Origin: Clostridia bacterium
Lineage (GTDB): Bacteria > Bacillota > Clostridia > Christensenellales > CAG-314
NCBI GenBank assembly: GCA_017409765.1
Contig: JAFQSA010000017.1
Coordinates: forward strand, 1 to 39,639
Direction of reading: 5' to 3'
DNA length: 39,639 nucleotides
In this document: piece by piece, positions 32,879 through 39,521 of the stretch
Numbering within the stretch: the first letter of the stretch is position 1
Layout: each line of letters begins with the position of its first letter
Position numbers and translations under genes: made by a program
Notes under the pieces: model-generated
Database searches by the model: none
The model's input: only the letters and a program-made list of their open reading frames with translations
What the model was told of the DNA's origin: nothing

Positions 32879-33643
32879 ATGGGTAAAATTATTTGTTTTT
32901 CTAACCAAAAAGGTGGTGTCGGCAAGACAACCACAGCAATCAACCTGGCAGCATTTGTTGCAAAAAAAGGCAGAAAGTCACTCCTTGTAGACTTTGACCC
33001 ACAAGGAAACAGCACAAGCGGTTTTGGCCTTGAGAAAAATCAGTTGGAGTTGACCTGCTACGACTTTTTGATGGGCGATTGTGAGGCAAGCGACGTTATT
33101 CGCCCCACCATGGTGGAAAATTTGAGCATTTTGCCCTGCAACATCGACCTTGCAGCAGCGGAAGTGGACCTTGTTAGCGTGCCTTCTCGCGAAAGTGTTT
33201 TGAAAAATCGCCTTGCGGAAATTCGCAACGACTACGATTTTATCTTTATCGATTGCCCACCAAGTTTGGGACTACTGACTTTGAACGCACTTGTTGCAAG
33301 CGATAGCGTTGTTATCCCCATCCAAAGCGAATTTTTTGCGTTGGAAGGTCTTAGCCAACTGATGAACACCATCAAAATTGTCAAAATGCGCCTCAACTCC
33401 AAATTGGAAATCAACGGCGTTGTTTTGACCATGTACGACTCTCGCACAACAATGTCCAAGCAAGTTACTGCGGAAATCTACAAGTACTTTGGCGCAAAAA
33501 TGTACACCGTACCCATCCCACGCAACATCCGTTTGGTAGAGTCACCCAGTTTTGGCGTGCCAATTTTCCTGCATTCGCCAACATCCAGCGGAGCAAAAGC
33601 ATACGATGCATTGACTGAACAATTTTTACAAAGAGAGGAATAG
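32879..33643 (+). CDS. parA: Chromosome partitioning ATPase ParA/Soj
   Basis: ParA (Soj) is a deviant Walker ATPase that binds DNA nonspecifically and, with ParB, drives origin segregation; in Bacillus it also controls DnaA. The 254-residue product has the deviant Walker A KGGVGKTT (11-18), FDPQGNSTSGFG (about 41-52), and FIDCPPSLGLLTLNA for Walker B. Length is that of the chromosomal, HTH-less type. I start it at the ATG at 32879, which follows AAAGGAG; the frame is open about 20 codons upstream without a ribosome site. parB follows after six bases. Confidence 0.97.
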   Translation: MGKIICFSNQKGGVGKTTTAINLAAFVAKKGRKSLLVDFDPQGNSTSGFGLEKNQLELTCYDFLMGDCEASDVIRPTMVENLSILPCNIDLAAAEVDLVSVPSRESVLKNRLAEIRNDYDFIFIDCPPSLGLLTLNALVASDSVVIPIQSEFFALEGLSQLMNTIKIVKMRLNSKLEINGVVLTMYDSRTTMSKQVTAEIYKYFGAKMYTVPIPRNIRLVESPSFGVPIFLHSPTSSGAKAYDALTEQFLQREE

Positions 33644-33649
33644 AGTACA

Positions 33650-34558
33650 ATGGCAGCAAAACCAACAAACAAAGGACTAGGCAGAGGCTTTGCCTCTTTG
33701 ATGGGAATGAACGACTTTGACGTTGTTCCACAAAATGACGACAACAAAAGCCAAGACGGAGTTGTGATGATCTCCTTGATGGAAATCGACCCCAACTACG
33801 AGCAACCACGTAAAACTTTTGACGAAGATGCGCTTGCAGAACTTGCCGAAAGCATCAAGATGCACGGTGTAATTCAACCAATCGTTGTTACGCCAATTGG
33901 CAAACGCTTTATGATCATTGCCGGCGAACGTCGTTTTAGAGCAAGCAAACTTGCTGGCAAAAAGGACATCCCTGCAATCGTTCGCAACTACACACCACAA
34001 CAAATCAAGGAAATTTCCATCATCGAAAACTTGCAACGCGAGGACCTCTCTCCAATTGAGGCGGCACGCGCAATCAAGACTTTGATGACAGAGTTCAACA
34101 TGACTCAAGAAGTTGCTGCTGACCGCATCGGCAAGAGCCGTTCCGCTGTGGCAAACACATTGAGATTGCTCACTTTGAGTGACGAAGTTATCGAACTTAT
34201 CGAAAAGGGCAGACTTTCCGCTGGTCACGCGCGCACGTTGGTTGTTGTGCCAACTGCCGACCAATACAAGCTTGCGCTGAAGGGTTGTGACAACAAAATG
34301 ACCGTTCGCGAAATGGAAAAGATGGTGCGCGACTATCTCAATCCAAAGCAAAAGCCACAAAAAGTTGTCGAGGAAAGTCGTGAACTGCGCGACCTTGTTG
34401 GTAACATGAAACGCGCGTTTGCAACAAAAGTTTCCGCAATGGGCAACGGCACAAAAGGTCGCATTTACATCGACTACTTTACTGCCGACGACCTTGACCG
34501 CATCTGCCGTCTTGTTGACGAATGGATGAACGAAAAGTTCCGCAAGGACGAAGAATAG
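33650..34558 (+). CDS. parB: Chromosome partitioning protein ParB/Spo0J
   Basis: ParB is a CTP-dependent DNA clamp that loads at parS and recruits SMC. The 302-residue product has the ParA-contact motif LGRGFASLM (10-18), the CTP-binding ERRFRAS motif (93-99), the HTH MTQEVAADRIGKSRSAVANTLRLL (about 143-166) that reads parS, and a C-terminal dimerisation domain. It ends the parA-parB pair. Four matching parS sites lie 1.8-3.3 kb downstream. No noc paralogue is present. Length is standard. Confidence 0.97.
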   Translation: MAAKPTNKGLGRGFASLMGMNDFDVVPQNDDNKSQDGVVMISLMEIDPNYEQPRKTFDEDALAELAESIKMHGVIQPIVVTPIGKRFMIIAGERRFRASKLAGKKDIPAIVRNYTPQQIKEISIIENLQREDLSPIEAARAIKTLMTEFNMTQEVAADRIGKSRSAVANTLRLLTLSDEVIELIEKGRLSAGHARTLVVVPTADQYKLALKGCDNKMTVREMEKMVRDYLNPKQKPQKVVEESRELRDLVGNMKRAFATKVSAMGNGTKGRIYIDYFTADDLDRICRLVDEWMNEKFRKDEE

Positions 34559-34609: not shown

Positions 34610-35191
34610 ATGGATATTATTGGATATGTATTTGCTGGCATTGCGCTAATTGCACTGTTTGTTGGGCTAAAAAAGGGCTTTGTAAGCACGCTACTTGGAT
34701 TGCTTTCCGCCGTGGGATCAATTGCAGTAGCAATCATCTTTACACCAAAGGTGTGCGAGATGGAATTTGTAAAAAACGCGATTGAGGACACACCAATTGT
34801 CATCAACGGACAAGAAATGTTCTACCTTAGAACGGTAATTGTATTCTTTGTGCTGTTTGTTGTGTCGTTGATTGTTATTTTGGCAATCAAAGGATTATTC
34901 AAATCACTAATGAAACGCGTCAAAGTGCTCAAATTTGTCGACAGATTACTTGGTGGCGTGTTTAACGTAGTAATTATTTGGGCTGTATTTAGTATTTTGT
35001 TTGCAATCTCCAGCATTGGCACCGATTGGTTGGTGGCAATTGAAGAGCAAATCGCTTCATCTGGACTAGAGATCGCTTTGGTTGAACCGGTTGGCAACGC
35101 TTTGACAACAGTTCACGGTAGCCAAATTTTGCAAACTGTGTTTGGCGCATTCAATCCAATTGGCGAATTGGTAGCAGGATTGTTGTTGTAA
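34610..35191 (+). CDS. CvpA-family membrane protein, copy 1
   Basis: CvpA-like proteins are small multi-helix membrane proteins, some linked to envelope stress or colicin V export; the role in Gram-positive bacteria is unclear. The 193-residue product has helices at about 4-22, 27-46, 75-98 and 115-137. The CvpA start pattern (GLKKGFVSTLLGLLSAV) and FVDRLLGGVFNVVI in the middle are present. GGAG precedes the ATG. It follows parB by 51 bases with no terminator, so it is likely cotranscribed with parAB. A second CvpA-like gene faces it at 38325. Confidence 0.85.
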   Translation: MDIIGYVFAGIALIALFVGLKKGFVSTLLGLLSAVGSIAVAIIFTPKVCEMEFVKNAIEDTPIVINGQEMFYLRTVIVFFVLFVVSLIVILAIKGLFKSLMKRVKVLKFVDRLLGGVFNVVIIWAVFSILFAISSIGTDWLVAIEEQIASSGLEIALVEPVGNALTTVHGSQILQTVFGAFNPIGELVAGLLL

Positions 35192-35291
35192 TATTTGCAC
35201 ATAGCTTCAACAGCTAGGTAAAATTTGGTTGGCTGTATTTATCAAGTAGAATTAGCAAAACCATTTCAACAAAATATTGACAATTTATTTA

Positions 35292-35323
35292 GGCGAGTTG
35301 ACGGATGTTGACTCGTCTTTTTT
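35292..35323 (+). terminator. Terminator of parA-parB-cvpA
   Basis: GGCGAGT (35292-35298) pairs with ACTCGTC (35311-35317, one G-U), followed by TTTTTT. Confidence 0.75.
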
Positions 35324-35366
35324 ATTGGCAATAATGTAAATTTATGCAAAATTTGTGCATAAAATG

Positions 35367-35400
35367 TCGAAAACAAACCACGTATCCGCGATTTTTCAAA
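35367..35400 (-). repeat. ACGTGG intergenic motif, copy 5
   Basis: On the minus strand, GAAAAATCGCGGATACGTGG then TTTGTTTTCG. It lies 12 bases before the DnaA box. Confidence 0.55.
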
Positions 35401-35411
35401 ACTTTATGCAG

Positions 35412-35433
35412 TTATCCACAATATTGTGGACAG
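35412..35433. promoter_or_regulatory. DnaA box with an opposing imperfect box
   Basis: TTATCCACA (35412-35420) is a perfect DnaA box. Four bases later TGTGGACAG (35425-35433) is an inverted 7/9 match. I found no further close matches in the region. Confidence 0.55.
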
Positions 35434-36351
35434 CTTGAGGCGCACATCTTTCGAATGAGATTCACAAAATTATTCCCACAGAAAGACCATCTTTAGTGTA
35501 GCCTATTTGCACTATTTTGCCGGAAATTTACCGCAAAACGGCATAAATTCAGTATTTTACCCCAAATTTACGTCATTTTTGCTATTTCAAGAGGTTTCGT
35601 CTAGAATTTCTAACGTTTTAGCGGTGGTTTGGCGCTAAAATACCTTACTTTGGCAAAAAAATGAGATTTTTCGACTAAAATACGTTAAAGCTGACGTCAC
35701 AAAAGCATCAAAAAAGCTAAAACGGTGTCAAAAGCAGATAAATAGAACTGAATTCTTTAATTTCTCTGTCGATCCGTAGAGATAGCAATCCGTTGTCTGC
35801 AACTTTAATACAAGAATACCCAAGCGGAAAAAGCTGTCATTCTGCTGTAACAAGGCAAGATTTGGACACAAATTTGACCCAAATTATGTCATAAAAACTG
35901 GTTATTTTAGCCGTTTTAACGGAATTTTTCGATAAAATTTGCAAAATTTGATACCCTATCAGCCTAAATTTCGCGTCAGTAGCGATAAATACTGCTATAT
36001 TGTTCATTTTTGAAATGATTTTGCATTTGCAATCAATGTTCGCTTTTATCATGATATCTTGCTTGATTATGCCGACGCAGAAGGCGCTTGTAGTATTAGT
36101 TCTACATGCGTTACAAACAACTTATATAGGTTGCTTTGCTAATATATAGTTTTGACTCATCCATTTGAGCACTTTTTTGCCTATTTGACGTGAATTTTAG
36201 GCGTACACATATTGGTTATAAGGCATTTTGGCGACGAATATTGCAATGAATTATAGCCAAAATGCTATTTTCCACTATTGAATGGCAGTAAGAACGCCCT
36301 TTGATTCTATTTCGTCCCAATGCACGTGCTTTTTTAGGGTAATAGCCGATC

Positions 36352-36367
36352 TGTTTCACGTGGAACA
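36352..36367. promoter_or_regulatory. parS site 1
   Basis: TGTTTCACGTGGAACA: one mismatch from the palindromic parS consensus. Its reverse strand equals a parS variant known from Bacillus. Confidence 0.88.
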
Positions 36368-36476
36368 GGGAAAAAACTATTGACTAGCACACGCAGCCCA
36401 TACATTCGATATACAATGCCGCAACAGACCATCAAATATTGACATACATTTATACTTTTAAGCAATTCAAAACTTG

Positions 36477-36492
36477 CGTTTCACGTGAAACT
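36477..36492. promoter_or_regulatory. parS site 2
   Basis: CGTTTCACGTGAAACT: the 14-bp core GTTTCACGTGAAAC is perfect; only the outermost bases differ. Confidence 0.9.
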
Positions 36493-37416
36493 ACGCCTAT
36501 TTTCCAGCACAAATACAATTCATACATGCATGACGGCGCTAAAACTCATCATTTGCAAGCACAAAAAAGAAATATTTGTACTTTCTGGCATAATCGGGGA
36601 GTAAAAAACGCAATTAAAACAAGGATAGGCATAAATATGACAGCTTGAAAGAAGTAAATCCGCAGATATACTAGTCAAAAAGACTCAAATTGCTACCAAT
36701 TATAAGTAAAGTAACAGAAAAATTAAAAACTTACTGTACAAAAGACCGTTGCAGCACAATCTTTGAGAAAATTTTACCACGTTAGAAGCCACAACATGAC
36801 ACAAGATACCCAAATTGACGTGTCTAGTAGATGCTTTTTTTTCGCAATTCCTCTCCATCAAATCTAATTCGTAGCAATACAGCAGAACGATAGAGTGTAT
36901 GCGACAATAATTTTAAGCCCAAAATACCGCAAAAACATTTTTGCCACACTTTGGCTCAACGGTAGACCGTCAGTACATCAACGTAACATCGCAGACTAGA
37001 AAGAGGTAAAAAATCATTCAAAATGCCTAAAAATATGCGCAGAATTTTTCGAAATTTACTCAATTTTTACCGACAAAATGAAATTTTGGCCTAAAAAATT
37101 CTGTTAGAATGGCTAAAATAACCAGTTTTTGCAGTCATTTTTTAGGCATTTTAGAGCCAATTTTAGAACAATTACGCTTGAATGGGTACACCAACACACA
37201 ATATCGTCAGGTAGACAATCCCATCAACTGAGATTTTGCCGGCACACCAACTAGCAAATCTCCATAAACATTAACGTGCGCAAACTATTATTTTGCTTTT
37301 TTTTCATATTTGTCCGCACCTTTCTGGACCAGCACGCAATATTTAGCAAAGCGCGTTTGCGAAATACACTACAATTTTAGTTACCTGGACAGTTTTAGAC
37401 GATATTACTTGATATT

Positions 37417-37600
37417 TTGGCAATACAACTAGTAAATTTTGGCAAAAACTAGAATATTTAAGCAACATGACGATAAATTTCGGCAATATGACGGTTAATT
37501 TTAGTAATATAACTAAAAATCTATCCAATATTATCGAAAAACTCATCAGTATGGTTAAAACCCTGCCAATATAACGAGAGTTTGACAATATATCAAAATC
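37417..37600. repeat. Degenerate 21-22-bp tandem array A
   Basis: About nine units resembling GGCAATATGACG then GTTAATTTT. Spacing is near 21-22 bp, with strongly diverged units. One frame of the minus strand translates into a 7-residue pattern (VILLKLT, VILPKFI, VMLLKYS), reflecting the 21-bp period, but there is no sign of real coding. Confidence 0.6.
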
Positions 37601-37627
37601 ACGCTGTAAATCGCTAGTCAATATTTT

Positions 37628-37643
37628 TGTTTCACGTGAAACA
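37628..37643. promoter_or_regulatory. parS site 3
   Basis: TGTTTCACGTGAAACA, a perfect 16-bp palindrome, just after array A. Confidence 0.95.
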
Positions 37644-37778
37644 CACTTATATTTTCCCCCAAGAAACTTTTATTATCATATTTTAGCGAATACTAACATT
37701 AAACAACGCTCGAAATCGGGTCGCTTATAGTCGAATATTTTTAACGTTTGCAACCTGGAAACTTAGCCGAATTGCTTT

Positions 37779-37794
37779 TGTTTCACGTGAAACA
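37779..37794. promoter_or_regulatory. parS site 4
   Basis: TGTTTCACGTGAAACA, perfect, 151 bases from site 3. Confidence 0.95.
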
Positions 37795-38056
37795 ACTTTT
37801 CTGCGGAGTAAATTTGCATCAATAATAAGTGTCTTGAGGGAATTTATTTAATGGTCGGTCGCACAAAATTTGACACAAATAGTGCTTTGACGTGCTAAAT
37901 GATAGCGAAATAAAACGTTAGGTCTATTGTGTTAATATCAATAGAAGGTGGCTAGAAAATGTCTAAAATAGGTTAGAAATAGGCTAAAAGACGGCAAATT
38001 TAGGCTAAAACGCCTTAAAAATGGGCCAAATTGGACTAAAAACGAAATATTTGCAG

Positions 38057-38093
38057 TAAAAAAGCCGTATTTTCCATTGAAAACACGGCTAAA
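38057..38093 (-). terminator. Terminator of the second cvpA gene
   Basis: AGCCGT (38063-38068) and ACGGCT (38085-38090), extended by TTTT/AAAA after one mismatch, then six T on the minus strand. It lies about 230 bases beyond the stop codon. Confidence 0.75.
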
Positions 38094-38324
38094 TTTGATA
38101 TTTATTGAATTGTAAATAGATATAAATTTGCGAAAAACTTCTTTGAAAACTTGAGGTTTTTGAAAAAAAATTTCGGCGATATTTCGTAAACAACATTCAA
38201 TTTGCCTGTGAGTTAGGTCAAATCGATATCTAAAACAAACCCAGCAAAACAACGTTAGATAACCTTGCTAAATGGTTTCATTGACAAACAAATTTGGTAA
38301 TTTAACCGAAATTGAGCAAACCAA

Positions 38325-39053
38325 TCAAGCGATAGGGGCAAATAGCGCGTAGTTTACGTTAAACAGTTGACAAATTGCTTGTCCGAGAAGGTTAGAGTGG
38401 TGCACGTAGCAGAAAAACAAGGATCTGTTCGCCATGGAAACAACTTTTGCACCAAGTTCTGGGATAAATTTGGCGCAAATCACAGCAGATGCGGAGTACA
38501 ATACGCCAAAAACAATGATGTAGCCAAGCCCAACGGATAAAATTGCGCCTGCAATCTTGTCGATACTCTTCAAAACGGGCACTTTTGCCACTTTTGTGAG
38601 CAATTTTTTGATAGCAAGCAAGATATACTTGAAGATAAGGTAGATCGCCAGCCACAAAACAAAGGCTACAACAACCAATGCGATGCCAAACCCGAAAAAT
38701 TTACCCAAAGTGTTGAGCCCAAAACGTGTCATAACCTTGAAAATTGGTCCAGCAAGGCCTTTTAGTACGGAAAGTACACCGCCAGTTGCCAAAACGTCAA
38801 CCAATTGCTCTTGTGAAGCAACTTCCGTCGTCATGATGGGCTTTTTGAACCAACTTGTCGCCAAACCTTGCAATCCACCGAAGATTTCGGTATCATTTAT
38901 CAGGCGGAGCAGTTCGATTGTCACAACAACCGATGCCGCTAGCGCCACAATCACGCAAACCGTGGTGCTAATCATCTTTGCAAACCCATTTTTTAGGCCG
39001 ATTGCTAACGTCACAACCAAAAACGCAAGCAATCCGTAGTCTAGTATAGTCAT
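38325..39053 (-). CDS. CvpA-family membrane protein, copy 2
   Basis: The 242-residue product starts MTILDYGLLAFLVVTLAIGLKNGF, closely parallel to copy 1 and typical of CvpA. It has helices at about 4-20, 27-47, 120-148 and 168-192, with a longer outer loop between the second and third (about 50-110). The C-terminal tail of about 40 residues contains CYVHHSN and a hydrophobic end. GAGGAG precedes the ATG at 39053. It points toward copy 1 across the parS region. The two are divergent paralogues by eye. Function is unknown; placement beside parS may be incidental. Confidence 0.82.
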   Translation of the reverse strand: MTILDYGLLAFLVVTLAIGLKNGFAKMISTTVCVIVALAASVVVTIELLRLINDTEIFGGLQGLATSWFKKPIMTTEVASQEQLVDVLATGGVLSVLKGLAGPIFKVMTRFGLNTLGKFFGFGIALVVVAFVLWLAIYLIFKYILLAIKKLLTKVAKVPVLKSIDKIAGAILSVGLGYIIVFGVLYSASAVICAKFIPELGAKVVSMANRSLFFCYVHHSNLLGQAICQLFNVNYALFAPIA

Positions 39054-39155: not shown

Positions 39156-39521
39156 GGCAAGATAATCATTCAAATTGAAGATATATATCATTCAATCAGT
39201 AGAATATATCATTCAAACTGACAAGACGTATCAACTAAATCGACAAAATGTATCAATTAGATCAACACGATGTATCAATTAAATCAACAAGATATATTAC
39301 TAAAATTGCAACGATACATCATTTAGTCAGTAGGATGGCAAGATATATCATTCAAATTGAAGATACACATCATTCAATCAGTAGGATGACAAGAAATATC
39401 CATCAAATTGACAAGACGTATCGTTCAAAGCAACAAGACATATCAATCAAATCAACAAGATACATTATTAAAATTGGCAGGATATATCGTCAAGATTGCA
39501 AGTCGTATCAAAATGATTGGC
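39156..39521. repeat. Degenerate 21-22-bp tandem array B (iteron-like)
   Basis: About 16 head-to-tail units that begin CAAGATATATC and end TTCAAATTGA, with variation at several positions. Two units are lengthened to about 29 bp. The core GATATATC appears as GACGTATC, GATGTATC or GATACATC. A higher-order repeat is visible: 39175-39300 resembles 39351-39480, offset about 176 bases. The frame stays open across much of it, but no ribosome site precedes it, so I do not call a gene. Confidence 0.8.

Follow-up and report, generated by a model that had tools for sequence, protein, structure and literature searches.

A gene-free parS block beside parAB as a probable dedicated chromosome centromere in a genus of Clostridia

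In most descriptions, bacterial parS sites are short motifs that lie inside genes or between them. Why, then, should four of them lie in a 3-kb tract without genes, directly downstream of parAB? The window, that is, the whole stretch of DNA analyzed here (39,639 nucleotides), is contig C8 of genome G000, a 1.455-Mb genome in 57 contigs. The preliminary description of this DNA offered two readings of the tract at 35192–38324, the chromosomal origin or a dedicated centromere. Our analysis favors the second: the exclusive presence of parS in the block, the adjacent parAB genes, an ORF-poor layout conserved in relatives, and predicted terminators suggest a dedicated, origin-proximal chromosome centromere serving as a loading platform for ParABS and SMC, with a probability of roughly 0.88. 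For comparison, G000 and 24 further species of the same genus (25 genomes) were used. The closest ParB matches in the named collection were from uncultured Clostridia MAGs.

The block stood out in the gene-dense window, as originally proposed: at 3133 bp it was the longest gap, and the second longest was 643 bp. It was AT-rich, with a GC content of 34%, and neither codon usage, Pfam, Rfam, and tRNA searches nor shuffling gave a gene signal. Its longest ORF encoded 104 aa, whereas shuffled versions of the block averaged 76 aa, with 105 aa as the 95th percentile, and all ORFs of at least 40 aa scored negative for codon usage. The four longest ORFs had no significant match in Pfam, and Rfam and tRNA searches of the block yielded no convincing match. 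When its six-frame peptides were compared with those of relatives, no match was found apart from a conserved DNA element described below. Thus, a conserved protein or RNA gene inside the block, which the preliminary description had named as contrary evidence, was looked for and not found. A hidden protein in the block or in the element was rejected because there was no codon signal, nearly all element sequences had stops in every frame, and no peptides were shared. No second copy of the block was detected elsewhere in G000. The repeat array mentioned in the preliminary description was present as 20–21-nt units at 37412–37531; the array was, however, weak (TRF score, 61–68) and species-specific, with no conservation in relatives.

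The genes upstream of the block encode a chromosomal-type partition system. The parA gene (32879–33643, forward strand) encodes a Soj-type ATPase with the Walker A motif KGGVGKTTT (Pfam AAA_31, E = 8e-70), and the adjacent parB gene (33650–34558, forward strand) encodes a protein with ParB_N and HTH_ParB domains, whose translation contains GERRFR in ParB_N and an N-terminal GLGRG. Both genes are intact as judged by their Pfam domains, parB is the single ParB match in G000, and SMC is also encoded in this genome. As the preliminary description had noted, two convergent CvpA-family genes flank the block: cvpA1 (34610–35191, forward strand), encoding a Colicin_V family membrane protein, and cvpA2 (38325–39053, reverse strand), both with PF02674. 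Their products are distant paralogues with 24% identity over 63 aa. The pairing is incidental: cvpA2 is a frequent right-hand neighbor of the block in the genus, and cvpA1 was detected by tblastn in just two genus relatives. In the relatives, the block is followed by a cvpA gene and, at some distance, by a yyaC-family DUF1256 gene as well as ftsH, and mnmE, mnmG, rsmG, and the DUF1256 gene lie in the origin-side neighborhood; this corresponds to the neighborhood of soj-spo0J in Bacillus subtilis. At the contig end, upstream of cvpA2, an imperfect array of 22-nt and 51-nt repeats was observed at 39165–39474, which was not seen in relatives.

The four parS sites lay exactly where they had been placed before, at 36352–36367 (TGTTTCACGTGGAACA, one mismatch), 36477–36492 (CGTTTCACGTGAAACT, two mismatches), 37628–37643, and 37779–37794, the last two being perfect. 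They span 1.44 kb and are clustered beyond chance; at up to three mismatches, 0.61 sites were expected, and four were reached in 0 of 100 shuffles. No parS with up to two mismatches was found outside the block in the whole of G000, and a backwards control pattern gave 0 matches. The heptamer GTTTCAC occurs seven times in the 39.6-kb window, each time within one of the four parS.

Both edges of the block carry a strong predicted intrinsic terminator consisting of a 12-bp stem followed by a T-run, one on the parAB-cvpA1 side (35291–35318, forward strand) and one on the cvpA2 side (38063–38090, reverse strand), and both point inwards. Under stricter rules, 11 of 16 blocks had a predicted terminator no more than 250 bp from the left edge (0.55 expected from shuffles), and 7 of 16 had one no more than 300 bp from the right edge (0 expected). 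Convergent operons normally end in terminators, and what is unusual is the kilobases separating them. Since convergent neighbors carry terminators anyway, the closure of the edges may simply follow from how the genes are arranged; in the outgroup locus L062, the genes flanking the block are co-directional. These terminators and the conserved element, both absent from the preliminary description, carry more weight than the CvpA pair.

Twenty named loci of the genus had a readable parS region, which makes 21 species with the window; in L054, L057, and L060, which are outside this set, the contig stops shortly past parB. In the comparison of this interval among related genomes, suggested earlier as a check, all 20 readable relatives had an ORF-poor parS tract downstream of parAB, and the 21 species had 3–6 parS per tract. 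Measured from the nearest ORF of at least 130 aa on either side, the 18 fully bounded tracts, including that of the window, were 1153–5330 bp long, with a median of 2648 bp; two tracts of the genus were open where the available sequence ends. In L068, a 200-aa ORF, possibly spurious, overlapped a parS. In G020, the parS tract was 2271 bp long, and its longest ORF encoded 67 aa. The eight larger gaps in the codon model of that genome all contained ORFs of 275–822 aa, so that among the gaps lacking a long ORF in its 1.03 Mb, none is longer than the parS tract. Outside the genus, the tracts measured 576 bp in L062 and about 1.4–1.6 kb in L063–L065.

While this layout was retained, the sequence of the block was not. 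In the sister species represented by L040, ParB is 94% identical and parA-parB-cvpA1 align at 80% DNA identity, whereas the block compares at the level of unrelated sequence except for parS and one 77-bp patch. Against the 25 genomes, almost no match was found outside the patch shared with L040. Outside parS and the element, the block cannot be aligned with its counterpart in a sister species, and it is therefore not a gene maintained by selection on a protein. The whole genus thus keeps its parS in a dedicated gene-free block whose sequence is replaced almost completely, with parS and one element kept.

This element, of about 100 bp, was traced from over-represented words in parS-masked blocks and occurs in nearly every block. 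Its core consensus consists of CTGGttaAaAnAGnCgTTcTnACAGAATTTTT, about 13 bp, AAAATTTCCGACC, about 10 bp, and CATTCTG; in the genus only, AATTATGTTATAAAA precedes the core. In the window, the main copy lies at 35881–35979 on the forward strand and is the best match in the genome to model R1 (E = 2.4e-18). A second, degenerate copy lies in inverted orientation at 37048–37130 on the reverse strand (E = 6.7e-8 with R1), and the two copies share a 37-nt inverted repeat with 92% complementarity. With a sequence-only model, one strong copy per genome was detected in all 25 genomes of the genus (E values from 1e-11 to 6e-25), and the distance from the element to the nearest parS was 36–747 bp, with a median of 257 bp (18 blocks). 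A few weaker core copies were also observed between parB and dnaA in G001, G014, and G017; in G017 and G001, extra core-only copies lie near dnaA (L210, 8696; L211, 9293 and 2407).

Among 297 genomes of the order, matches to the element at E ≤ 1e-5 were confined to this family. Three other genera, which had not been used for model building, matched the core with E values of 2e-8 to 2e-10, and in all three the match lay 0.06–1.3 kb from the parS cluster. Three further genomes of the family (G189, G201, and G154) had no element match. Measured between ORFs of at least 120 aa, the parS gaps in these element-less genomes were 0.29, 0.58, and 1.46 kb, respectively; in the carriers G070, G270, and G222, they were 1.7 kb, 3.4 kb, and at least 3.9 kb. 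The longer gaps in the carriers suggest that the element and a long block go together, as far as this small set indicates.

The conserved element within the block is new here. Among the hits of a search of the open literature, no report of it or of gene-free parS blocks was found, which does not prove that none exists. With no supported RNA fold and no open frame, the element is probably a protein-binding site that aids the centromere; this is the most economical reading because the element stays tied to parS while its surroundings are replaced. A more tentative proposal, which we hold at a little under even odds, is that the centromere requires the element as a second cis-acting part, bound by a putative protein partner working with ParB or SMC. 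It is unlikely that the element is instead a small RNA gene or a regulated promoter with no part in the centromere, even though its genus-specific left part, ATGTTATAAAA, looks like an extended -10 promoter element. No such left part was detected in the three other genera, and both the orientation of the element relative to parB and the length of its spacers vary. As for a structured RNA, which was rejected, the consensus fold reached only -0.46 kcal/mol with 5 pairs and a covariation term of -0.14, so that neither a fold nor covariation was supported, and an Rfam search of the element gave no match. Stops were present in nearly all element sequences in every frame. A dif/XerCD site was also considered because the element contains TTATGTTATAA. 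Such a site has two 11-bp arms around 6 bp and lies near the terminus; the element is origin-proximal and has no recognizable second arm, and this candidate was rejected. No convincing dif was found in G020 for comparison.

The possibility that the block is the chromosomal origin itself, with a DnaA box and an unwinding element inside, is very unlikely. A perfect DnaA box, reported in the preliminary description, is indeed present at 35412–35420 on the forward strand, and the block is AT-rich and lies in an origin-proximal region. This box is isolated, however: a search for an oriC cluster in the block gave this one perfect box only, and it is not conserved in relatives. The GC skew, which was examined in relatives since G000 is in 57 contigs, also spoke against the origin option, its minimum lying 15–33 kb from parS in two relatives with long contigs. 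In G020, the minimum was at 836 kb, close to dnaA (832–834 kb), with parS at 851 kb, 15 kb away. In G017, which has this interval in inverted order, the minimum at 46 kb followed dnaA (42–43 kb), 33 kb from parS at 13.4 kb. In G023, the flat valley at about 455–487 kb extends to the edge of the block, as would suit the origin option; it spans both dnaA and parS and so does not separate the two. The block is thus origin-proximal in all three relatives. The fourfold-site skew of G020 was left unused because it tracks transcription, not replication.

Pooled over the genus, non-coding GC skew was already above zero in the mnmE-parA interval and stayed so along the entire block (+0.11, +0.09); it changed sign before parA and not inside the block. 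Its sign was the same, positive, on either side of the element and of parS, which argues against an origin at these sites. The blocks of the window and L040 had slightly negative skew, perhaps through local inversion. Where dnaA and parB were on one contig, they were about 8–60 kb apart, mostly 14–29 kb; in G000, they are on different contigs. The dnaA gene of G000 (L008; contig C54, 11143–12507) adjoins glycolysis genes (pgk, tpi, and gpmI-like), and dnaA is near parB in most of the genus. No consensus DnaA-box cluster was found in the dnaA-parA interval of 11 genus genomes, including by de novo word search. The absence of a cluster near dnaA as well leaves some room for an origin in the block, and it suggests that in this genus the boxes at the origin may form an unusual or diverged set.

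In a similarly unlikely reading, the block would consist of decayed genes or the remains of a mobile element, and parS would have survived there by chance. This would account for the low GC content, the lack of ORFs, and the fast turnover between sister species, but not for the same ORF-poor parS tract in 21 species, the conserved element inside it, the lack of any six-frame gene trace common to relatives, or the absence of the block from the rest of the genome.

How might a dedicated centromere of this type work? In the established picture, ParB forms a CTP clamp that is loaded at parS and then spreads over flanking DNA. In the block, ParB from the adjacent parAB operon would bind the four parS palindromes, close as a CTP clamp, and slide along the flanking DNA; ParA would move the ParB-parS complex, and the complex would load SMC. 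The clamps would thereby be loaded onto about 2.7 kb of gene-free DNA bracketed by the convergent terminators, and RNA polymerase would presumably enter this ParB nucleation zone only rarely because it is gene-free and closed by terminators. Exclusion of transcription may thus benefit the centromere, and the ~100-bp element would be a probable binding site for a further centromere factor. As a counterpoint to the centromere reading, long non-coding tracts can also grow neutrally. The block is a natural setting in which to ask whether ParB loading is disturbed by transcription, and the element offers a concrete candidate site for a further centromere factor; if it binds a protein, that protein would be a new component of the ParABS-SMC system.

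Among known systems, Lachnoclostridium phytofermentans (L069) is likewise ORF-poor at this place, with eight parS in a 2.4-kb tract beside parAB that contains no ORF of at least 130 aa. Its tract is on the parA side, whereas that of the window is downstream of parB. Several of its eight parS are spaced close to 215 bp (L069, 7040–8511). In Caulobacter crescentus, according to PMC5815017, a 5-kb segment holds the five strongest parS, at a distance of about 8 kb from the origin, and ParB covers about 10 kb flanking the clustered parS. Clustered parS near the origin are thus common to C. crescentus and the window, the distance to the origin being taken here from relatives; a gene-free tract and an extra conserved element are present here and are not described for C. 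crescentus in the passages of PMC5815017 consulted. The soj-spo0J region of B. subtilis shares with the window the identical 16-bp parS motif and the same par genes. Its parS are dispersed, the four strongest being about 5, 13, and 39 kb apart according to PMC5815017, whereas all parS of the present genome lie in one non-coding block.
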